DNA of 64,000 bases from Cetobacterium sp. ZOR0034 (lineage in GTDB: Bacteria; Fusobacteriota; Fusobacteriia; Fusobacteriales; Fusobacteriaceae), in contig NZ_JTLI01000014.1 of the NCBI RefSeq assembly GCF_000799075.1, forward strand, positions 62,001-126,000, read 5' to 3'. The notes below the pieces were generated by a model. That model was not told the origin of the DNA. It saw only the letters and a list, made by a program, of their open reading frames with translations, and did not search any database. This document shows positions 1 through 52,387 of this stretch, piece after piece (within the stretch, counting starts at the first letter, position 1; each line of letters starts with the position of its first letter). A program made the position numbers and the translations under genes.

Positions 1-384
1 TAATGTCGCTTTAGCTATCGCTGCTTTTGTTAAAGATATCGCTTTTTCTGTTCCAACCTCTTTATCTTTATGAACCCAAGAACAATGTTCTCTTATATTT
101 GCTATTTCAACTAAATACGGATTTAATCCCGCTGTTTCAGCTGCTTTTCTAAATGTTGCCTCATGCATTCTAGGTGAGCATGACGCTACAACAATTCTAT
201 CTAAATTTTTCTCTTTTATTGCATCTTTTAAATAGTTTTGCCCTACCTCTGAGCACATATATTGGTAGTCTACTGAATGTACAACTCCTGGCATATCTTT
301 TACTGCATCTCTTACTTTTTCTACATCTACAGTACCAGCAATGTTACTTCCGCACCAACAAACAAACACCCCTATTCTACGCAC
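1..384 (-). CDS. hdrA: HdrA-like iron-sulfur flavoprotein subunit (partial, runs off left edge)
   Basis: N-terminal 128 residues of a CoB-CoM heterodisulfide reductase subunit A homologue; the rest lies left of the window. Read directly from the reverse strand: a GTG start at 384 with a strong AGGGAGG site 7 bases upstream, then the typical HdrA opening RIGVFVCWCGSNI, a YMCSE segment and VVASCSPRMHE. HdrA family proteins carry FAD and several 4Fe-4S clusters and act as the electron hub of Hdr complexes in the cytoplasm. It is the third gene of hdrB-hdrC-hdrA, 26 bases after hdrC. In a non-methanogen the substrate is not CoM-S-S-CoB, so the electron acceptor here is unknown. Confidence 0.85.
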   Translation of the reverse strand, partial: MRRIGVFVCWCGSNIAGTVDVEKVRDAVKDMPGVVHSVDYQYMCSEVGQNYLKDAIKEKNLDRIVVASCSPRMHEATFRKAAETAGLNPYLVEIANIREHCSWVHKDKEVGTEKAISLTKAAIAKATL

Positions 385-410
385 TGATTTTCCTCCCTTA
401 ATTAAAAAAA

Positions 411-821
411 TTACTTAGTATATTTACGGAATCCACTTACTACTGCTTGTTGTGGCATTTTTCTATCTTGCATTATTTTTGCTACAAACTCAGGAGTTAA
501 TCTATCCTCTCCTTGCTTTCTAACAACTGTTTGTCTAACTGCTTCCATTAACTTTGAAACACTGACATTTCTAGGACATCTCGATTCACAAGTAAAACAA
601 GCTGCACAGTTCCAAATAGATTTAGATTCCCTTAACTTTTCTACATCTCCAATTTGTAAAAATCTTATAACTTGGTGAGGTAAAACGTCCATTCCTGCAT
701 TTGCTGGACATCCTGCAGAACATTTTCCACACTGCATGCAGTCATCTATTTTTTCTTTGCTTAACTCAAGTACTTTTTCTACTTCTGAGTTTCTTTTAGG
801 ATTTATTTTCCCTTTAAACAT
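411..821 (-). CDS. hdrC: HdrC-like ferredoxin subunit
   Basis: A 136-residue iron-sulfur protein. It has two 4Fe-4S cysteine sets: C28, C31, C34, C38P (CMQCGKCSAGCP) and C72, C75, C78, C82P (CAACFTCESRCP). This is the HdrC architecture, in which the protein relays electrons between HdrA and HdrB. The ATG overlaps the hdrB stop codon by one base (TAATG), so the two are probably translationally coupled and made in equal amounts. No membrane segment is visible, so it is cytoplasmic. Family assignment is firm; the physiological electron partners are not evident from the sequence. Confidence 0.9.
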   Translation of the reverse strand: MFKGKINPKRNSEVEKVLELSKEKIDDCMQCGKCSAGCPANAGMDVLPHQVIRFLQIGDVEKLRESKSIWNCAACFTCESRCPRNVSVSKLMEAVRQTVVRKQGEDRLTPEFVAKIMQDRKMPQQAVVSGFRKYTK

Positions 822-1609
822 TACTCCTCCTCTGCTTTAATCTCTAAAGCTTCTGCTAATAACTCAGTAAAATATGTAACTTTTATCTTAGAATTTTTCT
901 CCTCTAAGTTATATTTACAAAGAGGGCAAGCTGTTATAATTTCCTCTATTCCATTTAACTCTGCTGATTTTAGAATTTTTTCACTCATATTTTCAGCTAG
1001 CTCTTTATTATTTACAGATAAATATCCACCACAGCACTCTGTTCTATAAGGATATTTTATCGCCTTTGCACCTAAAGCTTCTATAAAATCTTCCATTATT
1101 TTGGGATTTTCAGGATTATCAAAAGTCATCTCTTTTTGTGGTCTCAACAATAGACAACCATAATAAGCTCCGATTTTTCTTTCTTTTAAAGGATTAGTAA
1201 CCTTTGCCTTTAATTTCTCAAAAGTAACATCATTCTTTAACATCTCTAAATAATGCACAACCTCTGTTTCACCAACATACTCATTCTCAACCTCTAAGTA
1301 TAAGTTCGCTTTTTTTCTAACATTTGGTTTTGTTCTCATATCGTTATTAACTCTTTTTATAACATTGTGACAAGCTGAACAAAGAGTCAAAAGTTTTTCT
1401 CCTTTATCTCTTGCTGAAATTAAGCTTCTAACTGATGAAAGTTTATGCGCTACCTCTCCGTCACTCTGAGGATATACCCCACCACAGCATTGCCAATTTT
1501 CAATCTCTTCCATTGATATTCCTAGCTTTTTAGCTGCATCTAAAGCATAATTCTCTAAATCTTTTGCTTTAGTTTTTAAGGTACAACCTGGATAGTAACT
1601 ATACTTCAT
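821..1609 (-). CDS. hdrB: HdrB-like heterodisulfide reductase subunit
   Basis: A 262-residue protein with two CCG domains, the hallmark of HdrB. The first set is C9, C41-C42, C77 and C80 (YPGC, QCCGG, CSAC); the second is C152, C192-C193, C228 and C231 (YYGC, ECCGG, CPLC). In characterised HdrB these bind the non-cubane 4Fe-4S clusters that cleave a disulfide. GGAGG lies 6 bases before the ATG. It is first in the hdrBCA operon, behind a consensus promoter. In bacteria such complexes can serve in flavin-based electron bifurcation or thiol/disulfide chemistry; which applies here would depend on the genes left of the window. Confidence 0.88.
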   Translation of the reverse strand: MKYSYYPGCTLKTKAKDLENYALDAAKKLGISMEEIENWQCCGGVYPQSDGEVAHKLSSVRSLISARDKGEKLLTLCSACHNVIKRVNNDMRTKPNVRKKANLYLEVENEYVGETEVVHYLEMLKNDVTFEKLKAKVTNPLKERKIGAYYGCLLLRPQKEMTFDNPENPKIMEDFIEALGAKAIKYPYRTECCGGYLSVNNKELAENMSEKILKSAELNGIEEIITACPLCKYNLEEKNSKIKVTYFTELLAEALEIKAEEE

Positions 1610-1648
1610 TCCATTCCTCCATTTTAAAAGTATTTTTTCAAAAATTAC

Positions 1649-1686
1649 TGTTCTGAAAACAAATGAATTACTTCATTAAAAGAACA
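1649..1686 (-). promoter_or_regulatory. Nested inverted repeats in the hdrB leader
   Basis: Between the hdrB promoter and its ribosome site, an outer pair TGTTCT (1649-1654) / AGAACA (1681-1686) encloses a palindrome AATGAA-TTAC-TTCATT (1662-1677). The two centres are offset by about 2 bases. The position just downstream of transcription start suits a repressor operator or an mRNA hairpin. The repeats are seen directly; regulatory function is inference. Confidence 0.4.
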
Positions 1687-1698
1687 CTTTTTACTTAA

Positions 1699-1728
1699 AT
1701 TATAGTATTACACTAGTATTCACGTCAA
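1699..1728 (-). promoter_or_regulatory. Promoter of hdrBCA
   Basis: On the reverse strand, TTGACG (1728-1723), an 18-base spacer and TATAAT (1704-1699), about 90 bases upstream of the hdrB ATG. This is close to the housekeeping sigma-factor consensus. Confidence 0.75.
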
Positions 1729-1826
1729 CTATTTTTTTTTATTTTTTCATTTTTTATGAAAACTTAACCAAAACTCGCTTAATAAACGGTTAATCGTTAC
1801 CATTAATAAAATATATTTTTCATTTG

Positions 1827-1855
1827 TTGACAGTTGTGTACAAACTATGTATAAT
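1827..1855 (+). promoter_or_regulatory. Consensus promoter of dcuC
   Basis: TTGACA (1827-1832), 17 bases, TATAAT (1850-1855): a perfect housekeeping promoter, with a 90-base leader before the dcuC start. Upstream, TTAATAAA occurs twice around 1780-1810, a possible regulator site. The whole 1610-1948 stretch is a divergent control region without a gene. Confidence 0.8.
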
Positions 1856-1948
1856 TAGTGAAAAATGTTCTTAAATAAATTTATCAACACTATTTTTATA
1901 CAGTTTTATTTTTGAATGTTAATTAAATTTTAAGGAGGAAACTACTCA

Positions 1949-3313
1949 ATGATTTTTTTCATCACACTTTTAATCATCTTTTTTGTGGGATATTTTATAG
2001 TTAAAAAATATTATCCTCAAGGGGTCCTATTTGTAGGAGGATTTCTTTTACTTTGTACCGCAATTTTATTTAACGACACACCCATGTTAAGTGAAAAGGC
2101 TTCTCTAGGATCTAATTTTTTAGACATATTCCAATATCTAAAAGATACTTTCTCTAAAACAACAGCCGGTTTAGGATTAACTATTATGGTTGTTGGTGGA
2201 TTTGCTAAATATATGGATCATATCGGGGCTAGTAAGGCTCTTGTTAAAATTACAACAAAACCTATGAAGAAACTTAACTCTCCATATCTTGTTTTAGCTT
2301 TAACTTATATTCTTGGACAGATATTAAATATATTTATTCCTAGTGCATCAGGTCTTGGAGTTTTACTTATGGTAACTGTTTATCCTATACTAGTTTCTCT
2401 TGGTGCTAGTCCACTTTCAGCTACAGCCGTTATAGGAACAACTGCCTGCCTTGATTTAGGACCTGCATCTGGAAACTCAGTTCTTGCTGCTAAAACAGCA
2501 AATATAGACGCAGCTCTTTATTTTGTTAAATATCAACTTCCTGTCTCTGTTTTTGTTATCACTGCTATCGCTTTAACGCATTATTTTGTTCAAAAAATCG
2601 GAGATAAGAATCTTTCATATGATGAAAGTGAAATCAAAAAAGAAGCAACTCAAGCTGATAATTCGGAAGAGGCTCCTGGATTCTATGCATTATTCCCGAT
2701 TATTCCTTTGGTTATAATATTAGGATTTAGTTCACTTTTCAAAAGTAGTATCAAAATGAATGTTGAAGTTGCAATGCTTTTAAGTATCACTGTTAGTATG
2801 GTTGTTGAAGGAGTAAGAAGACGTACTTTCAAAAATACAATCACTGATTTAAAAATAGTTTTTAATTCTATGGGTTCTCAATTTGCGGCTGTTATAACAC
2901 TTATTGTTGCGGGTCAGTTCTTTGCTTACGGACTTACTAAAGTTGGAGTTATCGATAGTATTATCGAATGGACAAAACATGCAGGTCTTGGTGTTCAACC
3001 TATGATTCTTGTTATGACTGGTGTTATCTCTGCATCATCTGTTATTATGGGATCTGGAAATGCTCCATTCTTCGCTTTTGCTGCCCTTGCTCCTACTGTT
3101 GCAGCTTCTGTCAATATAGATCCTGTTGTTATTGCTATGCCTATGCAACTTGCATCTGGAATTGCTAGAAGTGTTTCTCCTATAACTGCTGTTATTGTTG
3201 CTGTTTGCGGTATCTCTGGTGTTTCACCTTTCTTAGTTGTAAGAAGAACTTTCTTACCTATGCTTGTTGGTTTAATTGTTTTATTAGTTTCAAATATGAT
3301 TTTATTTGGATAA
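1949..3313 (+). CDS. dcuC: DcuC-family C4-dicarboxylate transporter
   Basis: A 454-residue, very hydrophobic inner-membrane protein with about 12 membrane segments. It resembles DcuC along its length: GVLFVGG near the N terminus, a conserved HIGA segment, SASGLGVLL, GSGNAPFFAF and SPFLVVRRT near the C terminus. DcuC carriers move fumarate, succinate or related dicarboxylates during anaerobic growth, usually as exchange or succinate efflux. AAGGAGG lies 10 bases before ATG. An M20 peptidase follows 22 bases later in the same transcript, so the real substrate could instead be an N-acylated acidic amino acid or peptide; that part is inference. Confidence 0.82.
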   Translation: MIFFITLLIIFFVGYFIVKKYYPQGVLFVGGFLLLCTAILFNDTPMLSEKASLGSNFLDIFQYLKDTFSKTTAGLGLTIMVVGGFAKYMDHIGASKALVKITTKPMKKLNSPYLVLALTYILGQILNIFIPSASGLGVLLMVTVYPILVSLGASPLSATAVIGTTACLDLGPASGNSVLAAKTANIDAALYFVKYQLPVSVFVITAIALTHYFVQKIGDKNLSYDESEIKKEATQADNSEEAPGFYALFPIIPLVIILGFSSLFKSSIKMNVEVAMLLSITVSMVVEGVRRRTFKNTITDLKIVFNSMGSQFAAVITLIVAGQFFAYGLTKVGVIDSIIEWTKHAGLGVQPMILVMTGVISASSVIMGSGNAPFFAFAALAPTVAASVNIDPVVIAMPMQLASGIARSVSPITAVIVAVCGISGVSPFLVVRRTFLPMLVGLIVLLVSNMILFG

Positions 3314-3335
3314 TTTATATTAAATGGGGGATTTT

Positions 3336-4430
3336 ATGGATTTAAATAAATATTTAAAAAATTTAGAAACTTTAGTTAATGTAGATTGTGGAAGTAACAC
3401 TCCTGATGGTCTTAAAATTGTAACGAAGTTTTTTGAAGAGCTTTATTGCGATTGGATTGTTGAATATCATGAATTAAATAAAAATAATCCTGTTCTTGTT
3501 ATAAAAAATAGAGATGTCGAAAATTTTGATTTTCTTTTTATTGGACATAACGATACTGTTTTTCCTGAGGGAACTGTAGCTAAAAGACCATTTAAAATAG
3601 ATGGAGATATCGCTACCGGACCTGGTGTTTACGATATGAAATCAGGATTACTTTCTATGTATGAAGTTGCGAAGGAGTTTAAAGATTCAAAGTTAAATAT
3701 CTGTATTATTATAAATACAGATGAAGAGATTAGCTCTTTAATCTCTAGAGATTTAATTACTGAAATGGGGAAAAAAACAAAATATGCTTTAGTTTTTGAA
3801 CCTGCTAGAAAAAATGGAAATATGGTTTCAGAAAGAAAAGGTTTAGTTAAATATGAGATTACTTTCAAGGGAAAAGCGGCTCATGCAGGAATCGCACCAC
3901 AAAATGGAATCAATGCTATCATAGAAGCCTCAAGATGGGTTTTAGAAATTTCAAAACTTCAAAATTTAGAGATTGGAAACTCTATAAATGTTGGAGTTAT
4001 AAATGGTGGCTTTGGTGTAAATACCGTTCCTGATAAAGCTGTTATAAAATTTGAAGGTCGTTCTCATGATATAAAACATTTTGAAAATATTATCAAAACT
4101 TTAGATACTTTAAAGTCAACTCCTTATGTAAATGGAATTGAAATAGAAGTAAAAGAGATTGGATATAGACCTCCTCTTGTTTTAAATAATCTTTCAAAAG
4201 TTCTTTTAGAGAAATTTGATGTTGCAAAAGCTGAATTGGGAATTAAAGCTGAATGGGAAAAAACTGGTGGTGGCTCTGATGCTAACTTCTTAGGAATACT
4301 TGGAGTTGGAGTCTTAGATGGGATTGGCCCTATTGGAGGAAATTCTCATGAGGAAACTGAGTATCTTGTTATCTCGTCAATTGAAGATCGTATCGAAATG
4401 ATAAAAAAAGTATTAAGAACATTTTTATAA
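3336..4430 (+). CDS. M20 family metallopeptidase (carboxypeptidase G2-like)
   Basis: A 364-residue cytoplasmic M20 hydrolase. Conserved elements are in order: GHNDTVFP with the first metal His (about residue 71), YDMKSG with the bridging Asp (about 100), TDEE with the general-base Glu (about 130), a dimerisation domain containing AAHAG, and the C-terminal NSHEETEY with the last metal His. I place the start at the ATG at 3336, because the GGGGGA site sits 5 bases before it; an ATG at 3324 overlaps that site. The glutamate carboxypeptidase/deacetylase subgroup fits best, but the substrate cannot be read from the sequence. It shares a transcript with dcuC and ends at a strong terminator. Confidence 0.8.
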   Translation: MDLNKYLKNLETLVNVDCGSNTPDGLKIVTKFFEELYCDWIVEYHELNKNNPVLVIKNRDVENFDFLFIGHNDTVFPEGTVAKRPFKIDGDIATGPGVYDMKSGLLSMYEVAKEFKDSKLNICIIINTDEEISSLISRDLITEMGKKTKYALVFEPARKNGNMVSERKGLVKYEITFKGKAAHAGIAPQNGINAIIEASRWVLEISKLQNLEIGNSINVGVINGGFGVNTVPDKAVIKFEGRSHDIKHFENIIKTLDTLKSTPYVNGIEIEVKEIGYRPPLVLNNLSKVLLEKFDVAKAELGIKAEWEKTGGGSDANFLGILGVGVLDGIGPIGGNSHEETEYLVISSIEDRIEMIKKVLRTFL

Positions 4431-4434
4431 ACTT

Positions 4435-4458
4435 AGAGAGGATTTTCCTCTCTTTTTT
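4435..4458 (+). terminator. Terminator of the dcuC-M20 transcript
   Basis: Stem GAGAGGA (4436-4442), loop TTT, TCCTCTC (4446-4452), then a run of six T. It begins 5 bases after the M20 stop codon. Confidence 0.85.
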
Positions 4459-4536
4459 ATTAAAAAAGATTTTCATAGAAAAAAATACTAAAATAATGTA
4501 TAATTAGGAAAAAGAATATATTTGGAGGTAATTTTA

Positions 4537-5163
4537 ATGAAAATTAAAGCCTTTCCTTTAGGAAGCTATATGACAAACTGTTATTTAGTTTGGAATGATA
4601 AAAATGAGGCTTCTCTTTTTGATTGTAGCGATACAAGATTAGCAGGGATTGTTTCTTTTATAAAAGAGCATAATTTAACTTTAAAAAATGTTATTTTAAC
4701 TCATGGTCACGGAGACCATATCGGTGGAATAAATGAAATTAAAAATATTTTTCCTGAGGTACAACTTTTCATAGGAAAAGAGGAAGAAAAGTTCCTAACA
4801 GACGCTTCTTTAAATCTATCTTACGCTATACAAGGATTTGACTTTGTATATACAGGTGATTTTACTCCTTTAAAAGAGGGAGATTCTATTTTTGGATTTG
4901 AAGTTATTGATACTCCTGGTCATACAATTGGTTCGAAATGTTTTTATAACAAAGAAGCTAATTTTATGATCTCTGGCGACACACTATTTAGAAGAAGCTA
5001 CGGTAGATATGATCTACCAACTGGAAATTTATCACAATTACAAAGAAGTTTAAAAAAGATTTGTGAGAACTATCCAGAAGATACTATAGTGTATAGTGCC
5101 CACACTGAACCTACACTTTTAGGGGAGGAGAGAAGAGTATTAAAATCCCAAGGAATGTTTTAG
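4537..5163 (+). CDS. MBL-fold hydrolase (glyoxalase II-like)
   Basis: A 208-residue metallo-beta-lactamase-fold protein with the binuclear metal motif THGHGDHIGG, a further His in DTPGHTIGS, the bridging Asp in ISGDTLF and a C-terminal His in YSAHTEPT. Size and motif spacing fit the short glyoxalase II/YcbL-type hydrolases, probably acting on thioesters in the cytoplasm. The start is the ATG at 4537, with GGAGG 8 bases upstream; the TTG at 4522 overlaps that site and is rejected. A TATAAT at 4499-4504 is a likely -10 element. The thioredoxin-reductase-like gene follows after 11 bases, so both may serve thiol or aldehyde detoxification. Confidence 0.82.
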   Translation: MKIKAFPLGSYMTNCYLVWNDKNEASLFDCSDTRLAGIVSFIKEHNLTLKNVILTHGHGDHIGGINEIKNIFPEVQLFIGKEEEKFLTDASLNLSYAIQGFDFVYTGDFTPLKEGDSIFGFEVIDTPGHTIGSKCFYNKEANFMISGDTLFRRSYGRYDLPTGNLSQLQRSLKKICENYPEDTIVYSAHTEPTLLGEERRVLKSQGMF

Positions 5164-5174
5164 GAGGACTTAAT

Positions 5175-6119
5175 ATGGAAAATAAAATTTATGATGTTGT
5201 TATTATTGGAGCTGGACCCGCAGGTTTAACATCTGCACTTTATGCAGGAAGATCAAACTTGTCAGTATTAGTTATTGAAAAACCAACTGTTGGAAGCTTA
5301 CTTATGGCCCACAAGATTGAAAACTATCCTGGAATTCAAGGATCACCTACTGGTAAAGATATCTATAATTTAATGAAAGAACAAACTTTAAAATTTAATG
5401 TAGAATTTGTAGATGCTACATTTTTAGGTTTTGATCTACTTGGTGAAAATAAAATAGTTAAAACTGATAAAGATAACTTTGCAGCTAAAACTGTTATTAT
5501 TGCAAGTGGTTGGGCAAAAAATGGTGCTAAAAAATTACCTGGTGAAGAACAGTATTTAGGTAAAGGAGTTTCTTACTGTGCTACTTGTGATGGTGCTTTC
5601 ACTAGAAATATGAGCGTTTCACTTTTCGGAAAGGGTAAAGAAATCGCTGAAGAAGCATTATTTTTAACAAAATACTCTAAAGAAATCCATATGTTTTTAA
5701 CTGAAGCTTCGGATGAATCAGAGGATAAATCACTTATGGAAACTTTAAAAGCCAATGAAAAAATTAAAATGTACTATTCATCTAAACTTTTAGAAATAAA
5801 AGGTGAAGAATTTGTAGAAGAGGTAATAGCTGAGGTAGCTGGAGAAAAAATAAACTGTAAAACTCAATTTGCTTTTCTATATCTAGGAACTAAATCATTG
5901 AAAGAGCTATATGGAGAAGTGGCATCTTTAGACGAAAATGGATATCTTATAACAGATGAAGCTATGCATACTTCTATTGAGGGTATATTTGCTGCTGGAG
6001 ATGTCAGATCAAAAATGATTAGACAAGTGACTACAGCAACTTCTGATGGAACAATAGCGGCACTTGAAGCTATAAAATTTGTACTTAAAAAACAAAATTT
6101 AAGAGCTCAATATAGTTAA
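5175..6119 (+). CDS. Thioredoxin-reductase-like flavoprotein lacking the NADPH motif
   Basis: A 314-residue protein with TrxB topology. The FAD-binding IGAGPAG is at 11-17, ENYPG near 50, the redox pair CATC at C135 and C138, and the second FAD motif AAGDVR near the C terminus. The NAD(P)H domain is unusual: the GGGDSAxEE loop of NADPH enzymes is FGKGKEIAEE (151-160), and the HRRxxxRA segment that binds the 2'-phosphate is absent, with an acidic LTEASDESED stretch in its place. Known families with this loss use ferredoxin (FFTR of clostridia) or another donor. I infer a ferredoxin- or NADH-dependent thioredoxin reductase; NADPH use cannot be excluded. AGGAGG precedes the ATG. Confidence 0.78.
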   Translation: MENKIYDVVIIGAGPAGLTSALYAGRSNLSVLVIEKPTVGSLLMAHKIENYPGIQGSPTGKDIYNLMKEQTLKFNVEFVDATFLGFDLLGENKIVKTDKDNFAAKTVIIASGWAKNGAKKLPGEEQYLGKGVSYCATCDGAFTRNMSVSLFGKGKEIAEEALFLTKYSKEIHMFLTEASDESEDKSLMETLKANEKIKMYYSSKLLEIKGEEFVEEVIAEVAGEKINCKTQFAFLYLGTKSLKELYGEVASLDENGYLITDEAMHTSIEGIFAAGDVRSKMIRQVTTATSDGTIAALEAIKFVLKKQNLRAQYS

Positions 6120-6140
6120 AAACTTATAATTTTATAAAAA

Positions 6141-6175
6141 AAGAAGTCAGAGCCTCAAAACTCTGACTTCTTTAT
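6141..6175. terminator. Bidirectional terminator between the TrxB-like gene and glnN
   Basis: A 12-bp perfect stem, AAGAAGTCAGAG (6141-6152) with CTCTGACTTCTT (6161-6172), loop CCTCAAAA. It has T-rich flanks on the forward side and an A-run upstream that serves the reverse strand. It separates two convergent genes. Confidence 0.88.
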
Positions 6176-6177
6176 AT

Positions 6178-8289
6178 TTATAATCTGAATAACATATCCT
6201 CATAAGTTGGAACTGGCCAAACTTTCTTTTCAACTTGATGCTCTAATAAATCAACAATATCTCTTAAACAACTTAAAAGAGGAATAATCTCTTTATTTAA
6301 ATATTCTACTTTTTCATATAATCCATCAATTTCATTAGCTACAACTAATTGTGATTCTAATTGTGCTAAATAATCTTTTAAACGATTTTTACCAGCTAAT
6401 AATTTAACTAAGTGAGCTTTATCAGCAGATAAATATTCATCATTTCCTAAAACTTCTCTCAATGAAAGAATACTGTTTGATATTTTTGCAGCATACTCCA
6501 TAAGTGCTGGATATATTTCATTTCTTGCGATTCTAACCATTGAGCTTCCTTCAATATTTACTTGCTTTATATAACGCTCACAGTAAACTGAATATCTCGC
6601 CTCTAATTCTTCCGGAGATAAAACTTTGGCATTTTTAAACAGTTCGATTATATTCTCTTGTTTATAAACTTTTAATCCTTCTAAAGTATTTCTTAAGTTT
6701 TTTAAACCTCTTTTTTCAGCTTCAACTTTCCAACTGTCATCATAACCATTTCCATTAAAAACGATTCTTTTATGTTTTTCATATCTATCTTTAATTAATT
6801 CAATTATATTTTTCTTTAAATCCTTTGGATCTTTAGATTCTAATAAATCCGCATATTCCTTTATGATTGTACCAATTATTGTATTTATAATAAATGTCGG
6901 TGTTGATGCTGAAGCACTTGATCCTGGCATTCTGAATTCAAATTTATTTCCTGTGAATGCAAATGGAGATGTTCTATTTCTATCAGAAATATCTTTTGGT
7001 ATTTTTGTAAAGTTTTTAACACCAAATTCCATGCTTTCTTTTACATCGTTTGTTGGAACAATCTCTCCAATATTTTTTAAAATTTCTTCTAATTCATCAC
7101 CAATGAAAACAGAAATTATTGCTGGTGGAGCCTCATGCCCCCCTAATCTATGATCATTTCCTGGTGTTGCACAAGACGCTCTTAATACATCAGCATATCT
7201 ATCAATTCCTTCTAATACTGCTGTTAAAAATACTAAGAACTGAAGATTATTTTTTGATAAAGAAGATGGATCCAATAGATTTTCTCCTAAATTTGTTGCT
7301 AATGACCAGTTACAATGTTTTCCTGATCCATTCACACCTTTAAATGGCTTCTCGTGTAATAAGGCACTTAAATTGTGTCTGTCTGCAACTTTTTTAATTA
7401 TATCCATTGTTAATTGGTTTTGATCCACTGCCACATTTGCTGTCGCAAACATAAGTGCTATCTCAAACTGGTTTGGAGCTACTTCATTATGCTTTGTTTT
7501 AGCCATAATTCCTATTTTCCATAACTCTGCGTCTATTTCATTCATTACTTTTTCAACTTTCTCTTTAATACTTCCATAGTAGTGATCATTTAATTCTTGA
7601 CCTTTTGGAGGCAATGAACCAAATATTGTTCTACCAGAAAGCATTAAATCTTGACGCTTCTCCCAGAAACTCTTCTCTATTAAAAAATACTCTTGCTCTA
7701 GACCTAAAGTATTTGTAATTGAAGTTACATTTGATTTAGGATCTAAAATTCTTTTTAATCTTAATGTTTGCTCTGATATAAAATCAATTGATCTTAATAA
7801 AGGAACTTTTTTATCTAATGCCATTTGATTGTATCCTATAAAGGCTGTTGGAATATATAACGACTTAGACAATCCTTCTCCTCTTAAAAACATTGGTGAT
7901 TTACAATCCCACGCTGTATATCCTCTAGCTTCAAAAGTTGATCTTACTCCTCCATTTGGGAATGATGATGTGTCAGCTTCTCCTTTTATAAGCTCTTTTC
8001 CTGAAAACTGTGAAACACAACTTCCATCTGAAGACATTGAAATAAATGAATCATGCTTTTCTGCTGTTAGTTCTGTCAAAGGTTGGAACCAGTGTGTAAA
8101 ATGTGTTGCTCCATTTTCAGTAGCCCAATTTTTAACTGCATTAGCTATAGAGTCCGCAAGTTCGATAGATAACTCTTTTTCTCCGTTTTGAACCTTTTTA
8201 AACTCTTTAAAATACGATTCTGGTATTCTGCTTTTTAATTTATCCTCTGTAAAGCAAAATTGTCCAAAAATTTCTAGCATGTTGTTCAT
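6178..8289 (-). CDS. glnN: Glutamine synthetase type III
   Basis: A 703-residue glutamine synthetase of the GSIII class found in Bacteroides, cyanobacteria and fusobacteria. It makes glutamine from glutamate, ammonia and ATP in the cytoplasm. Conserved blocks include FTHWFQP near residue 60, LEQEYFLIE near 200, KHNEVAPNQFEIA, NGSGKHCNWS and NDHRLGGHEAPPA, all typical of GSIII active-site regions. The length equals the family norm. The start at 8289 has AGGAGG about 4 bases upstream. It has its own promoter and an inverted repeat in the leader. An IclR gene lies upstream but ends at its own terminator, so linkage is not required. Confidence 0.95.
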   Translation of the reverse strand: MNNMLEIFGQFCFTEDKLKSRIPESYFKEFKKVQNGEKELSIELADSIANAVKNWATENGATHFTHWFQPLTELTAEKHDSFISMSSDGSCVSQFSGKELIKGEADTSSFPNGGVRSTFEARGYTAWDCKSPMFLRGEGLSKSLYIPTAFIGYNQMALDKKVPLLRSIDFISEQTLRLKRILDPKSNVTSITNTLGLEQEYFLIEKSFWEKRQDLMLSGRTIFGSLPPKGQELNDHYYGSIKEKVEKVMNEIDAELWKIGIMAKTKHNEVAPNQFEIALMFATANVAVDQNQLTMDIIKKVADRHNLSALLHEKPFKGVNGSGKHCNWSLATNLGENLLDPSSLSKNNLQFLVFLTAVLEGIDRYADVLRASCATPGNDHRLGGHEAPPAIISVFIGDELEEILKNIGEIVPTNDVKESMEFGVKNFTKIPKDISDRNRTSPFAFTGNKFEFRMPGSSASASTPTFIINTIIGTIIKEYADLLESKDPKDLKKNIIELIKDRYEKHKRIVFNGNGYDDSWKVEAEKRGLKNLRNTLEGLKVYKQENIIELFKNAKVLSPEELEARYSVYCERYIKQVNIEGSSMVRIARNEIYPALMEYAAKISNSILSLREVLGNDEYLSADKAHLVKLLAGKNRLKDYLAQLESQLVVANEIDGLYEKVEYLNKEIIPLLSCLRDIVDLLEHQVEKKVWPVPTYEDMLFRL

Positions 8290-8305
8290 AAATCCTCCTC
8301 TTTTT

Positions 8306-8324
8306 CGTTCTACATTGTCGAACG
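8306..8324 (-). promoter_or_regulatory. Inverted repeat in the glnN leader
   Basis: CGTTC (8306-8310), nine bases, GAACG (8320-8324), lying between the glnN promoter and its ribosome site, about 16 bases before the start codon. This is a suitable place for a repressor operator of a nitrogen regulator. The repeat is seen; its role is inference. Confidence 0.4.
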
Positions 8325-8353
8325 TTGTTCTTTAATAAAAATTTGTTATATTC

Positions 8354-8382
8354 ACAATATACTATTTTTATATTTTTGTCAA
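8354..8382 (-). promoter_or_regulatory. Promoter of glnN
   Basis: On the reverse strand, TTGACA (8382-8377), 17 bases, TATTGT (8359-8354). It begins directly after the terminator of the upstream iclR gene. Confidence 0.72.
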
Positions 8383-8384
8383 CC

Positions 8385-8416
8385 AAAAAATAAAAAAGAG
8401 GAGTTAATACTCCTCT
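8385..8416 (-). terminator. Terminator overlapping the iclR stop codon
   Basis: On the reverse strand, stem AGAGGAG (8416-8410), loop TATTAA (8409-8404), CTCCTCT (8403-8397), then TTTTTATTTTTT. The TAA stop of iclR lies inside the hairpin loop. Confidence 0.8.
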
Positions 8417-9171
8417 CTTGCTCCTAATTCGAACGATATTTTTTTACTCATAGCTACCATCTTCGGTGCCAGATGCGGAAGAATATGCATCATTTTCTCC
8501 CTTGTAGCCATTATCGATGCAGTTCCTACAAATTCATTATTAACCTTAAAAATTGGAACTGAAATACAATATATTCCCAATTCTACTTCTGATCTCTCTA
8601 GAGAATAACCATCTTTTCTAATCTTGTAAATCTCTTCGATTAAAGTTTCTCTATCTATTATTGTACTATTAGTATATTTATATAATAAATCTTTATTAAA
8701 TATAACATCTATATTTACATCCTTAGAGTAAGCTAATGCTAACTTTCCAGAAGCTGATGCATTCAAAGGAATCTTAGTTACTGATGTACTTATTGTATAA
8801 TACATTGAATCAGACTGAACTCTATCAATTAACTTTAAATGCTCTCTTTTAAAAATAAACAGATTTACTGTTACAGAAAACTCCTCTGATATGTTAACTA
8901 AATATTTATGTCCCACATTCTTTATCAAAACATCTTCATTTACAATAAAACTTTTCTCTATAAAAGCTGGTCCTAGTGAATAGTTACTATTTTTTTCACT
9001 CTGCTCTAAATATGAATTTTTTAAAAGTGTTGAAACAATTCCATGAACAGTACTTTTACTTAATCCAACCTTCTCACTAATCTCTTTTAGTGATAGTTCA
9101 TGAACTTCCTCATTAAAGCAATTCATTATATCTATTGCTCTTTGGATAGATTGTATAGTTTTTCCTTCCAT
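8404..9171 (-). CDS. IclR-family transcriptional regulator
   Basis: A 255-residue DNA-binding regulator. Residues 8-65 form the IclR winged helix (SLKEISEKVGLSKSTVHG, wing after LLKNSYLEQ). Residues about 75-250 form the effector-binding domain, with the usual ASASGKLALAY and RSEVELGIYCISVPIF segments. IclR proteins sense small carboxylates or aromatic compounds and repress or activate nearby catabolic genes. It follows cvfB by 11 bases, so it probably shares that transcript. The nearby glnN and the tyrosine phenol-lyase about 4 kb away are possible targets, but nothing in the sequence proves it. A GGGGA ribosome site precedes ATG. Confidence 0.88.
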   Translation of the reverse strand: MEGKTIQSIQRAIDIMNCFNEEVHELSLKEISEKVGLSKSTVHGIVSTLLKNSYLEQSEKNSNYSLGPAFIEKSFIVNEDVLIKNVGHKYLVNISEEFSVTVNLFIFKREHLKLIDRVQSDSMYYTISTSVTKIPLNASASGKLALAYSKDVNIDVIFNKDLLYKYTNSTIIDRETLIEEIYKIRKDGYSLERSEVELGIYCISVPIFKVNNEFVGTASIMATREKMMHILPHLAPKMVAMSKKISFELGAREEY

Positions 9172-47623: not shown

Positions 47624-47674
47624 TATTTATACTCCTTTTTTCTTTTTTTTCATTATAACAATATTTCTTCTAAT

Positions 47675-47704
47675 TTGTTAATTTTCTTTTTTATATGGTA
47701 TAAT
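47675..47704 (+). promoter_or_regulatory. Promoter of the LytS/LytR pair
   Basis: TTGTTA (47675-47680), 18 bases, TATAAT (47699-47704), 26 bases before the sensor-kinase start codon. Confidence 0.65.
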
Positions 47705-47729
47705 TAAGATCATAATTTAGAGGTGTCTT

Positions 47730-49394
47730 ATGTTCGAATTGGCAAGTAAACTATTTAATACTCTCGGCTATATTATAGCTATCGCGTTTTTCTTTTCTCG
47801 ATTCAAAAGTGCCAAAAATATTTTTGTAAGAGAAAAACATACAAAAAAAGATACAATACTTCTTTCAATTGTTTTTTCTAGTTTAGCTATTTTAGGAACT
47901 TATATTGGAGTCGATTATAAAGGTGCAATTGCAAACACTAGAAACATCGGAGTCATTGTTGGTGGTATGCTTGCAGGCCCTGAAGTTGCTATTATCTCGG
48001 CTATTATTGCTGGTATACACAGAGCTTCTATCGGAGTTAGTCAACTTACTGCAATTCCATGCTCTATTGCAACAGTTTTAGGTGGATTTATTACTAGCTA
48101 CCTCTACAAAAAATCTAACTCTAACAATCGTTCTTTTCTAGGCTTTTTCGCAGGTGTTTTCGTTGAAAACCTTAGTATGCTACTAATATTAGTTCTTTCT
48201 AGTAATAAAATTTTAGCTATGGATATCGTTAAAAATCTTTATCTTCCAATGATATTTATAAATGGAATAGGTGTCGCAGTCATAATCATAATAACCGAAG
48301 AAATTTTAGAAGAGAAAGAAAGAGAAGCGGGAACACAAGCTAAATTAGCTCTCGAAATCGCCAACAAAACTCTTCCGTTCTTTAAAAAAGGAGAATCTCT
48401 CGATAGTGTTTGTAAAATTTTACTTGAATCATTAAAAGCTGAAACTGTTGTTATCACTGATAAAAATTTTATAATAGCAAACGCTTTTAAAAATAAAGAT
48501 TTTTGTATAAAAAATCAAAGTATTCAAAGTGATGCTACTAAAAAAGTTTTATCTTCTGGTGAAGTTTTAATTTTTGATAGAAACAGTGAACTAAATGATT
48601 TCTGGTACTCTGAAAAAGGTATAAAATCTTGTATTATTACCCCTCTTTTTCAAGATGAAAGAGTATCCGGTACTTTGAAAATATACTTTAATAATGAAGA
48701 AAATATTACTGCTAGAAAAAAATATTTAGCTATTGGCCTTTCTCAACTTATCTCTAGTCAACTTGAAATAAGTAAATTAGAAAATTTGAAAGCCATGGCC
48801 AGAGATGCTGAACTAAAAGCTCTACAAGCACAAATAAATCCACATTTTCTATTTAATGCTCTCAATACAACAGCTTCATTTGTTAGATTTAATCCCAGTA
48901 AAGCAAGAGAGATTATTATTGATTTATCCACTTATCTTAGATACAATTTAGAAAATACAGATAGACTTGTTCCTTTAGAAAAAGAGTTAGAACAAGTTAA
49001 AGCTTATATAAATATAGAAAAAGCAAGATTTCAAGATAGAATTGAAGTAATTTATAACTTTGATCAAAATTTAGATAACTTAAAAATACCTAGTTTAACC
49101 ATTCAGCCACTTGTTGAAAACAGTATAAAACACGGATTATTAAAAAGAAATGGTTCTGGAAAAGTTAAAATTACTATAAAAAAAATGTATTTAAAATGTT
49201 TAATCTCTGTAGAGGATGACGGTATTGGAATTGATCCAGAAATAATCAAAAATATAAATAATAAAATTGAAAAAAATATAGGTTTAAAAAATGTTCATAA
49301 TCGTTTAAAACTTATCTATGGTAAAGGATTAAATATAGAACGTCTAAGTAACGGAACAAAAATTTCATTCTATATTGACCAGGAGGAACAATGA
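47730..49394 (+). CDS. LytS/BtsS-type sensor histidine kinase
   Basis: A 554-residue membrane sensor kinase. Residues about 1-195 form the multi-span 5TMR-LYT sensor (GGMLAGPEVAIISAIIAGIHR), followed by a GAF-like region (about 215-345), the phosphoacceptor AQINPHFLFNALN near 375 and an ATPase domain with NSIKHGL near 465 and DDGIGIDPE. It is the LytS/YehU/YpdA class. The last four bases overlap the response-regulator gene (ATGA). In E. coli the BtsS/BtsR and YpdA/YpdB relatives sense pyruvate and drive transporter genes; the CstA-type transporter next door suggests the same. AGAGGTG precedes the ATG. Confidence 0.92.
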   Translation: MFELASKLFNTLGYIIAIAFFFSRFKSAKNIFVREKHTKKDTILLSIVFSSLAILGTYIGVDYKGAIANTRNIGVIVGGMLAGPEVAIISAIIAGIHRASIGVSQLTAIPCSIATVLGGFITSYLYKKSNSNNRSFLGFFAGVFVENLSMLLILVLSSNKILAMDIVKNLYLPMIFINGIGVAVIIIITEEILEEKEREAGTQAKLALEIANKTLPFFKKGESLDSVCKILLESLKAETVVITDKNFIIANAFKNKDFCIKNQSIQSDATKKVLSSGEVLIFDRNSELNDFWYSEKGIKSCIITPLFQDERVSGTLKIYFNNEENITARKKYLAIGLSQLISSQLEISKLENLKAMARDAELKALQAQINPHFLFNALNTTASFVRFNPSKAREIIIDLSTYLRYNLENTDRLVPLEKELEQVKAYINIEKARFQDRIEVIYNFDQNLDNLKIPSLTIQPLVENSIKHGLLKRNGSGKVKITIKKMYLKCLISVEDDGIGIDPEIIKNINNKIEKNIGLKNVHNRLKLIYGKGLNIERLSNGTKISFYIDQEEQ

Positions 49395-50116
49395 TTAAAT
49401 GTGTAATTGTTGAAGATGAATTTCCCGCTAGAGAGGAATTAAAATTCTTTATTAACAGTAATACCAATTTTCAAATTGAAAAAGAATTTGAAAATCCAAT
49501 AGATGCTTTGAAATATATTGAGGCAAATGAAGTAGATGTCGTATTTCTAGATATAAATATGCCTGAATTAGACGGTATGACTCTGGGAAAGATAATCCAT
49601 CGAGTCAATAAAAATATAAAATTAGTCTTTATTTCTGCCTATAAGGATTTTGCTGTAGAAGCTTTTGAAATAAAAGCTTTTGATTATATTTTAAAACCAT
49701 ATTCAGAAGATCGGATAATAACTCTTCTTGAAAATATTGTAGAAAAAATTAAAAAAATTGATTCCCCTCCTAAAGACTATAATATAAAAAAAATAACTGT
49801 TAATTCCGATTCAAAAATGTTAGTAGTTTCAACTGATAATATTTTATACATTGAAGCAGATGAAAAAGAAACAAATATTTTTATGAAAGAAATAATGTAT
49901 ACATCAAAATTAAAAATTTCTCAATTAGAAAATATTCTTTCTGAAGAATTATTTTTTAGATGCCATCGTTCATATATTGTAAATATCGATAAAATTATCG
50001 AAGTAGAACCTTGGTTTAATGGCACTTATATTTTAAAAGTTTCAAATTCTAATTTCAAAATTCCTGTAAGTAGAAATAAAGTCAAAGAACTCAAAGAAAT
50101 TTTAACTATAAAATAA
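49391..50116 (+). CDS. LytTR-family response regulator
   Basis: A 241-residue regulator with an N-terminal receiver domain (Asp-acceptor in VVFLDINMPELDG near residue 55, Lys in LKPYSEDR near 105) and a C-terminal LytTR DNA-binding domain (about 135-240, VSTDNILYIEADEKETNIFM and FFRCHRSYIVNIDKI). It is translationally coupled to the sensor kinase. LytTR domains bind two direct repeats spaced about 21 bp apart; such a pair lies upstream of the adjacent cstA. I infer that cstA is its target, as for BtsR and btsT in E. coli. Confidence 0.92.
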   Translation: MIKCVIVEDEFPAREELKFFINSNTNFQIEKEFENPIDALKYIEANEVDVVFLDINMPELDGMTLGKIIHRVNKNIKLVFISAYKDFAVEAFEIKAFDYILKPYSEDRIITLLENIVEKIKKIDSPPKDYNIKKITVNSDSKMLVVSTDNILYIEADEKETNIFMKEIMYTSKLKISQLENILSEELFFRCHRSYIVNIDKIIEVEPWFNGTYILKVSNSNFKIPVSRNKVKELKEILTIK

Positions 50117-50147
50117 AAAATCTCTCCTAAATTAGAGAGATTTTTTA
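50116..50147. terminator. Bidirectional terminator between LytTR and cstA
   Basis: AAAAAATCTCTC (50116-50127) with GAGAGATTTTTT (50136-50147), perfect 12 bp, 8-base loop. Both genes converge here. Confidence 0.87.
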
Positions 50148-50151
50148 TTTA

Positions 50152-51528
50152 TTACTTTTTTATTTTTTTTAAGAATAATCCTAATGCCACTACTGCCCCC
50201 GCTATTCCAACTACATAACCTATAGTTTCTGATAATCTAAATCCTTCTGGTGCTATCAGTATGTATGTTGTAACTACCGCAGTCATAAATGTCGCCGGTA
50301 TAGTTGCTATCCAATGATTTTTTTCTCCTTTAGCTAAATATACTGCTCCAGCCCATAATGCTATCGTTGCTAAAGTTTGGTTTGACCATGCAAAATATCT
50401 CCAAATAATTGCGAAATCTATAAAACATAAACCAATTCCTACTGCAAATAGTGGTATTGCTATCATAAATCTATTTTTTATTGGTCCTTGCTTGTAGTCA
50501 ATTGCATCTGCTATTGCTAATCTTGCACTTCTAAATGCTGTATCTCCTGATGTTATTGGACAAGCTACAACTCCTAATAATGCTAAAGCTCCCCCAACTT
50601 TTCCTAATATACTATTTGATATTGTATTTACTACAACTCCTGCTGGTCCTGCATTCATAAGTCCTTCAGTTCCACCAAAGAATGACATTGCTGCCGCTGC
50701 CCAAACAAGTGCAATAACACCCTCTGCTATCATTGATCCATAAAATACTCTTCTTCCCTCTTTTTCACTCTTCATACATCTAGCCATAAGAGGTGATTGT
50801 GTTGCATGGAATCCAGAAATCGCTCCACACGCTATTGTTATAAATAGATATGGATAGATTGATGTTCCTTTAGGATGTAAGTTTACTAATGAAATCTCTG
50901 GTATATTATATCCTTGGAAGATTAGTCCTCCACCAATACCTATTCCCATAATAATCAATGAAGCTCCAAATATTGGATATATTTTTCCTATTAATTTATC
51001 AACAGGTAAAACTGTGGCAAGCATATAATATGCAATTATTATTGCTACCCATGTTAAAGTTCCTATACTTGTCATGCTTGCTAATATTCCGGCTGGTCCA
51101 TTTACAAATACAACTCCAACAAGTACTAATAATACAACTGAAAATACTCTCATAAGTTTTTTTGCATTGTCACCCAAGTAATGCCCTACAATTTCCGCTA
51201 TAGTTGCTCCATCGTGTCTCACCGAAAGCATTCCTGATAAATAATCATGTGTTGCTCCCGCAAAAATACATCCAAATACAATCCATAGAAAAGCTGCTGG
51301 TCCCCAAAGCGCTCCCGCTACTGCTCCAAAGATAGGTCCTAATCCAGCTATATTTAAAAACTGAATTAAAAATGCTTTTTTCCAATCTAATTCAACATAA
51401 TCAACTCCGTCTGCTAGACGAACTGCAGGAGTTTCCTTATCACTAATACCAAATACTTTCTCTACATACTTTCCATAGATTGCATAACCTAAAATTAACG
51501 CTATCAACGATCCTATAAAACTAATCAT
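50152..51528 (-). CDS. cstA: CstA/BtsT-family transporter (pyruvate or peptide)
   Basis: A 458-residue inner-membrane carrier of the CstA family. Family blocks are GPAAFLWIVFGCIFAGATHDYLSGMLSVRHDG near 75, SGFHATQSPLMARCM near 235, WAAAAMSFFGG near 272 and CPITSGDTAFRSARL near 315. It is the short form lacking the long C-terminal part of E. coli CstA/BtsT (about 700 residues). The start is the ATG at 51528 after GGAGG; the GTG at 51543 overlaps that site. E. coli BtsT imports pyruvate. The adjacent LytS/LytR pair and LytTR boxes upstream make regulated pyruvate uptake the best inference. Confidence 0.86.
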   Translation of the reverse strand: MISFIGSLIALILGYAIYGKYVEKVFGISDKETPAVRLADGVDYVELDWKKAFLIQFLNIAGLGPIFGAVAGALWGPAAFLWIVFGCIFAGATHDYLSGMLSVRHDGATIAEIVGHYLGDNAKKLMRVFSVVLLVLVGVVFVNGPAGILASMTSIGTLTWVAIIIAYYMLATVLPVDKLIGKIYPIFGASLIIMGIGIGGGLIFQGYNIPEISLVNLHPKGTSIYPYLFITIACGAISGFHATQSPLMARCMKSEKEGRRVFYGSMIAEGVIALVWAAAAMSFFGGTEGLMNAGPAGVVVNTISNSILGKVGGALALLGVVACPITSGDTAFRSARLAIADAIDYKQGPIKNRFMIAIPLFAVGIGLCFIDFAIIWRYFAWSNQTLATIALWAGAVYLAKGEKNHWIATIPATFMTAVVTTYILIAPEGFRLSETIGYVVGIAGAVVALGLFLKKIKK

Positions 51529-51563
51529 CTTAAACCTCCACACTCTGATATTTTTTCTAATAT

Positions 51564-51592
51564 ATTATAATTGTTTTTTATCAAAATGTATT
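51564..51592 (-). promoter_or_regulatory. Activator-type promoter of cstA
   Basis: TATAAT (51569-51564) with a poor -35 (AATACA at 51592-51587, 17-base spacing). A good -10 with a weak -35, preceded by an activator site, fits LytTR-dependent activation. Confidence 0.6.
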
Positions 51593-51613
51593 TTTTTTGG
51601 AATAAAACGACTA

Positions 51614-51649
51614 TTTATAAACTTAAATTGTATTTTTATATACTTAAAT
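51614..51649 (-). promoter_or_regulatory. Paired LytTR-type binding boxes upstream of cstA
   Basis: Reverse strand: ATTTAAGTATATAAA (51649-51635) and ATTTAAGTTTATAAA (51628-51614), identical at 14 of 15 positions and exactly 21 bases apart. The second contains TAAGTTTAT, which fully fits the LytTR consensus [TA][AC][CA]GTTN[AG][TG]; the first differs from it at one position. It lies upstream of the cstA promoter and overlaps the stop codon of the EI24 gene. Confidence 0.75.
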
Positions 51650-52387
51650 ACCTTTTTTTGTTTTTAAAAGTTTCAATGTTGTTGTTGTGAATGCAGTTAT
51701 GCTTATCAATGGAGCCACGATTATCCCTATGATAGGAATAAAATATATCAAAGTAAATATTCCACCTCCAATTGTAAATACGATCTTATTTTGCCATATA
51801 AAATCTGAACTTTCCTCTGCTGACATCTTGTGTCTTTCAAGTGTATAATCAACAAAATTATACGATATAAAGTAACTTTGAATAATATAAATTAAAATCG
51901 GTACGATTATATTTATAACAGGAATAAATCCCAATAAAATAACTATACTCGTAAAAAAAAATTCTTTAAAAAAACTTTTACCCGCAATTTTTATTCCCCT
52001 TAATATAAAAAACAAATTTTCTTTGACCGTGAATTTATACACAACTCCCTCTTCGTAGCATTCAATCTTTTCGGATATATAACTAAAAAAAGGTGCTAAT
52101 ATTGCCAATAAAATCGTTTTAAAAAAGAAATACTCTACTGAAATCATAATCGTTCTTATTAAAAAGATAAACAACCATCTTACTATTCTAGAATATTCTT
52201 GAAAATCAAAAACATTACTTACTTCTTTGAATATCCAATCCCCTATATATCCAGAAATCCAATAAAAAAATAAAAGTAATAATACGCCTACAAATCCTCC
52301 AACCAAATATCCCCATCTTAACCCTAATTCTTTTATTAATTTAGGCGCTTTCAAATAACCGTCTAATAATATTCTTATCTTTTCCAC
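51644..52387 (-). CDS. EI24/CysZ-like membrane protein
   Basis: A 247-residue inner-membrane protein of the EI24 domain family (CysZ-like), with about four to five hydrophobic segments: ~28-48, 65-88, 125-170 and 205-235. The DYTLERHKMSAEES segment followed by a C-terminal hydrophobic pair (GGGIFTLIYFIPIIGIIVAPL) is the family signature. CysZ relatives are sulfate transporters, but many EI24 proteins have no assigned substrate. It begins at GTG with GAGGAG 6 bases upstream. Its stop codon overlaps the LytTR boxes of cstA. Single gene. Confidence 0.78.
   Translation of the reverse strand: MEKIRILLDGYLKAPKLIKELGLRWGYLVGGFVGVLLLLFFYWISGYIGDWIFKEVSNVFDFQEYSRIVRWLFIFLIRTIMISVEYFFFKTILLAILAPFFSYISEKIECYEEGVVYKFTVKENLFFILRGIKIAGKSFFKEFFFTSIVILLGFIPVINIIVPILIYIIQSYFISYNFVDYTLERHKMSAEESSDFIWQNKIVFTIGGGIFTLIYFIPIIGIIVAPLISITAFTTTTLKLLKTKKGI

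Follow-up and report, generated by a model that had tools for sequence, protein, structure and literature searches.

Two LytS/LytTR two-component systems of E. coli are among the closest described counterparts of the locus analyzed here. The operator published for the regulator PyrR (YpdB), the partner of the kinase PyrS (YpdA), is a direct repeat of GGCATTTCAT at yhjX (PMC4847170). The second system, BtsS/BtsR, has btsT as its target, which in E. coli is unlinked to the regulator and encodes a CstA-family (pyruvate) transporter; the pyruvate-contact residues of BtsS are R72, R99, C110, and S113 (PMC10653868). LytTR activators usually sit about 10 bp upstream of the -35 element (PMC6193735). 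Adjacency of lytS, lytR, and cstA has been listed for C. tetani (PMC7290440), and the portions of that text covered by our search describe no cstA box or regulation.

The window, by which we mean the whole 64,000-nucleotide (64-kb) stretch of DNA analyzed, belongs to the 2.74-Mb draft genome of a Cetobacterium (Fusobacteriaceae) and carries the same three genes side by side. We conclude with good confidence, from sequence comparison, that positions 51600-51653 hold three LytTR boxes that would be bound by a PyrR-type LytR phosphorylated by LytS and would activate cstA, with a pyruvate-like signal being likely. Within the open-access literature that we searched, LytSR control of cstA in Fusobacteriota is not described, which agrees with the first-pass annotation of this DNA; pairing of a PyrR-type regulator and box with a CstA-family target, in Fusobacteriota or Clostridia, was likewise absent from the literature searched. 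The parts and the logic are known, so that what is new is the wiring and not the kind of system.

The lytS-lytR-cstA locus and the affiliation of its regulator

Pfam matches far above the cut-offs identify the products of lytS and lytR as a LytS/LytTR two-component system (Table 1), and LytR is the sole LytTR-domain protein found in the genome of the window (G000; one PF04397 match). The two genes run head-on into cstA, as had been noted in the first pass, leaving a lytR/cstA gap of 35 bp with a hairpin that is a probable bidirectional terminator for both genes. We placed the start of cstA at the ATG at 51528-51526 because orthologue alignments begin there and GGAGG lies just 5' of it. A GTG at 51543, which would extend the ORF to 463 aa, adjoins the ribosome-binding site and probably makes the protein too long. 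Genes for an EI24/CysZ-like membrane protein and an OmpA-like lipoprotein precede cstA on its own strand. The EI24 gene is outside the circuit, and one relative, G007, has lost it; in that genome (loci L010 and L073) the OmpA-like gene is now joined to the cstA promoter, and the distal box AGGTATTTAAGT is retained.

Table 1. Features of the lytS-lytR-cstA region, in positions of the window
Feature	Position	Strand	Evidence or remarks
lytS, LytS-type sensor histidine kinase, PyrS/YpdA-like	47730..49394	+	Pfam 5TM-5TMR_LYT, GAF, His_kinase, HATPase
lytR, response regulator with LytTR DNA-binding domain, PyrR/YpdB clade	49391..50116	+	Pfam, identity, tree
Hairpin between convergent lytR and cstA	50111..50150	.	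Fold -17.2 kcal/mol, z = -6.0
cstA, short CstA-family transporter, 458 aa from ATG	50152..51528	-	Pfam CstA 1.3e-56
-10 hexamer TATAAT, cstA promoter	51564..51569	-	30-31 nt downstream of box 3 in Cetobacterium
Candidate box 4, TACATTTTGATA	51579..51590	-	21-bp register; score 5.0; overlaps -35 region
Box 3 (promoter-proximal), GTCGTTTTATTC	51600..51611	-	21-bp register; overlooked in the first pass
Box 2 (middle), TACAATTTAAGT	51621..51632	-	Overlaps first repeat of the first pass
Box 1 (distal), AGGTATTTAAGT	51642..51653	-	Overlaps EI24 stop codon and second repeat of the first pass
EI24/CysZ-like membrane protein gene, 5' of cstA	51644..52387	-	Pfam

The first-pass annotation had likened the locus to BtsS/BtsR-btsT, an analogy that comparison does not support. 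LytS is 40% identical to E. coli PyrS and 32% to BtsS, and LytR is 41% identical to PyrR and 28% to BtsR. A 30-regulator tree places PyrR and the LytR of the window, together with Fusobacteriaceae and clostridial LytR proteins, in a 20-row group (support 100/99) that leaves BtsR outside; the exact neighbors of PyrR are less sure. By sequence, then, LytR belongs to the PyrR clade and not to that of BtsR, and neither a BtsR-clade regulator nor a BtsR box was found at the locus. The PyrS/PyrR subfamily is represented here by both its regulator clade and its GGCATTTCAT box, and the array lies 5' of cstA instead of yhjX. Three of the BtsS contact residues, R72, R99, and C110, are kept in LytS as R71, R98, and C111; S113 is replaced by A114 and is Thr in E. 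coli PyrS. The phospho-accepting H382 of BtsS corresponds to H372.

The resemblance to PyrS/PyrR-yhjX spans the kinase and regulator families (40-41% identity), the clade, the box, and its tandem arrangement at 21 bp. The two systems differ in their targets, the MFS transporter YhjX in E. coli and, in Cetobacterium, a short CstA protein whose gene adjoins the regulator. Compared with those at yhjX, the Cetobacterium boxes are A/T-drifted and three in number. BtsS/BtsR-btsT shares with this locus a LytS/LytTR pair and a CstA-family transporter, but its regulator clade and box are different and BtsT has 716 aa as against 458. The clostridial loci contain the same three genes with the same box in their promoters, but usually in tandem order.

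The box array upstream of cstA

The two 15-base direct repeats described in the first pass are present on the plus strand (51614-51628, TTTATAAACTTAAAT; 51635-51649, TTTATATACTTAAAT), identical at 14/15 positions and exactly 21 bases apart. No other pair in the 64 kb combines a distance of 21 with at least 14/15 identity, and pairs this similar are rare at any spacing from 15 to 30. Direct repeats with a period of 21-22 bp upstream of the target promoter are what is found in LytTR operators. One of the repeats does match the LytTR consensus core, as had been claimed, but the match is worthless as support: the window contains 87 matches to the AgrA-type consensus WMMGTTNRK, a looser LytTR-like pattern is likewise at chance level, and we rejected this consensus as evidence. 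Operators of the AgrA/AlgR type resemble the array in their direct repeats of about 21 bp and differ from it in core sequence.

To define the box independently, we took the 200 bp 5' of each cstA that was found among 61 Fusobacteriaceae genomes, added the corresponding segments of about 70 further loci, and ran de novo EM searches for a single motif recurring at a 21-bp interval. Twenty-four non-Cetobacterium Fusobacteriaceae promoters yielded TACATTTTA[at][ga]T, and a separate set of 24 lytSR-linked promoters from phyla other than Fusobacteriota, chiefly Clostridia plus a few Spirochaetota, yielded [at]GCA[tc]TT[ct]ATG[tc]. The respective likelihood gains were 238 and 204, whereas mononucleotide shuffles, which preserve base composition only, reached no more than 48; the related promoters are not independent. 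The box common to both model sets is T(A/G)CATTTYAnGT. Judged by sequence, both motifs are the E. coli PyrR box: with models built without E. coli, the verified yhjX site was the top match in 12 kb by 8-10 bits, and the same two models found no comparable site at the btsT promoter in the btsT region. When the spacing was varied from 14 to 30, there was a clear maximum at 21. In the held-out Cetobacterium promoters, the best pair always fell inside the same array under either model (p <= 0.015).

Comparison of these promoters demonstrates the identity, spacing, and position of the boxes, and it revises the choice of operator pair. The boxes of the window are drifted versions of GGCATTTCAT; under the non-Cetobacterium model, the first-pass pair ranks third among pairs in the 64 kb, and the array ranks first among triples. 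That pair corresponds to boxes 1 and 2, whereas the promoter-proximal pair is boxes 2 and 3, since box 3 is the one located at the family-wide distance from the -10 element. Box 3 with its next base shares 10/13 letters with the E. coli yhjX site GGCATTTCATTCC; it is also the most conserved block in the genus alignment and exceeds the distal box in conservation. Box 4 is weak and may be coincidental, and its equivalent (offset 42) is seen in few relatives.

A good -10 element with a weak -35, as recognized in the first pass, is confirmed: the -35 is AATACA, a poor 3/6 match at a spacing of 17 nt. The end of box 3 lies about 9 bp 5' of this element, and the distance from the end of the proximal box to the -10 is about 30 nt across the family (29-31 in most members). 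E. coli yhjX has a similar geometry, with a TATGGT hexamer 31 nt downstream of its boxes. A weaker third PyrR-like box, CGTCATTCATTC, was observed there as well (L236, 8111-8143), preceding the published pair by 21 bp.

Co-occurrence of the boxes with LytSR

Among the Fusobacteriaceae, the array was present in 37/37 examined cstA promoters from genomes with LytR and in 0/5 from genomes without it (G011, G012, G047, G048, and G051, two of which are under 90% complete), scored with the Clostridia-trained model at p <= 0.05 (Fisher 1.2e-6, uncorrected for phylogeny). One of the five, G048, was borderline under the Fusobacteriaceae-trained model (p 0.025). All 10 Cetobacterium promoters that come with the regulator have the array. 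Conservation of the repeats upstream of cstA orthologues that keep lytSR had been proposed in the first pass as a check, and its outcome is favorable, the array being present throughout. In three genomes (G021, G040, and G052), the boxes are kept at cstA with lytSR elsewhere in the genome.

A second comparison, mainly outside the Fusobacteriaceae, gave the same association: the array occurs in 25/27 loci with lytSR (three of them from Fusobacteriaceae) as against 3/44 without lytSR in the locus. Gene order may be convergent, divergent, or tandem, and the boxes stay upstream of cstA in all. Second cstA copies without lytSR mostly have no array, with L149 as a weak exception (p = 0.025). The sample consists of draft and MAG genomes with predicted promoters, and promoters of the same genus are not independent.

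Two further observations concern the Clostridia. In the lytR-cstA gap of L039, L040, L047, L057, and L059, the upstream box appears to coincide with a terminator-like inverted repeat of lytR, GCACTTTATGTGC followed by a T run, and by its sequence the operator may share this stretch with the terminator. Some Clostridium genomes (L042 and L041) have two tandem cstA genes beside lytSR.

Proposed control of cstA and alternative readings

Under the proposed mechanism, LytS, a PyrS-like membrane kinase, would sense an external 2-oxo acid and phosphorylate LytR. Two LytR molecules would occupy boxes 2 and 3 and recruit RNA polymerase to the weak cstA promoter, with box 1 probably strengthening LytR binding, so that the cell would make the CstA importer when its substrate is present. 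By analogy, the signal is likely external pyruvate or a close relative, because LytS and LytR resemble PyrS and PyrR and three of the four BtsS contact residues are kept, though the fourth is Ala and not Ser. We infer binding, activation, the ligand, and the CstA substrate, drawing for binding, sign, and ligand on the E. coli homologue and the promoter geometry. The earlier proposal of direct control by the adjacent pair is well supported by the tracking of boxes with lytSR and by the LytTR-type operators; its AgrA register and consensus, its choice of pair, and its BtsSR analogy fall away. The sequences thus indicate that cstA is very probably switched on by the LytSR pair.

That the locus is instead a BtsS/BtsR-btsT homologue, in which a BtsR-type regulator acts through BtsR-type boxes on a CstA-family pyruvate importer, would suit the identity of the target and the best NCBIfam match of LytR, which is BtsR (below the cut-off, 162 bits against 246). 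NCBIfam gave no PyrR match, however, so the best match is no test of subfamily. As LytS and LytR are both nearer to PyrS/PyrR by identity, the tree puts E. coli PyrR within the Clostridia/Fusobacteria group and BtsR outside it, and the box is that of PyrR with no btsT site found by the models, we consider this homology very improbable. We would also be surprised if the boxes served another regulator, their link to lytSR reflecting shared ancestry only. The LytR-negative genomes are few and in part incomplete, but the boxes accompany lytSR also where it is unlinked and are missing where it is absent, they match the box of the E. coli orthologue, and LytTR proteins, of which the genome has a single one, typically use direct repeats of about 21 bp (PMC4847170).

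The sign of regulation and the role of the distal box call for more caution. LytR might bind the array and repress cstA, or compete with another activator; sequence alone leaves the sign unfixed, and the possible box 4 overlaps the -35. Against this, the proximal box just 5' of a poor -35 has the usual geometry of a LytTR activator (PMC6193735), its distance to the promoter is conserved family-wide, and in E. coli the homologous regulator is an activator of its target (PMC4847170), so that we find repression or competition unlikely. As had been noted, one box covers the stop codon of the neighboring EI24 gene, namely the distal copy, and this box could be simply the EI24 coding end, alike by chance or recent ancestry, with only boxes 2 and 3 functional. 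Its overlap with EI24 codons or the stop in Cetobacterium, its lower score, and its greater variability between species speak for such a coincidence. We nevertheless think it rather doubtful: in Cetobacterium the mean score is +4.1 at exactly -21 as against -8 or less at all the remaining offsets from -32 to -11, in the rest of the Fusobacteriaceae about 60% of promoters show a box at -20 or -21 with nothing at any other offset, and G007 keeps the distal box without EI24 (a recent loss). The distal box is probably a real operator element, with the EI24 overlap in Cetobacterium as a caution.

Since PyrR nests among clostridial LytR proteins, E. coli PyrSR may be an offshoot of a cstA module, and we put forward tentatively, as a possibility short of our favored expectation, that a PyrR-type regulator with its CATTTCAT box is an old cstA module of Fusobacteriota, Clostridia, and some Spirochaetota, that the PyrSR offshoot was re-aimed at yhjX, and that BtsSR took over a CstA-family target. 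If true, operator and spacing have outlived a change of both phylum and target. The proposed control of cstA would itself tie an E. coli regulator known for one small regulon to a far wider family whose usual target is apparently cstA, and would give the Fusobacteriota (including Fusobacterium), with few described regulatory circuits, a concrete candidate for a nutrient-sensing switch with defined operators. The idea of pyruvate sensing also becomes testable through protein and promoter swaps between E. coli and Fusobacteriota.

A strict two-box pattern run over the 61 genomes established no additional regulon member, and a control pattern matched about as often in many genomes. Among the matches inspected, the two between genes (L190 and L192) belong to cstA/lytS regions; most others are intragenic, with L193 and L194 spanning a start codon. 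The genome-wide model R1, which uses sequence only and was run over the genus, placed the cstA promoter as the best match in the genome of the window (E 0.19; next, 0.66); it was partly trained on these sites, its E-values are near chance, and the search is underpowered for other targets. The stretch 47624-47729 gave no box-like match that would point to lytS autoregulation in Cetobacterium. In genomes of genus g8, a second, divergent LytS/LytR pair adjoins TRAP-type transporter genes (L241, G040:C2:854000-866000, 36-8910), which by their translations only encode a TAXI-like solute-binding protein and a fused permease, and this arrangement suggests another LytSR-transporter circuit.
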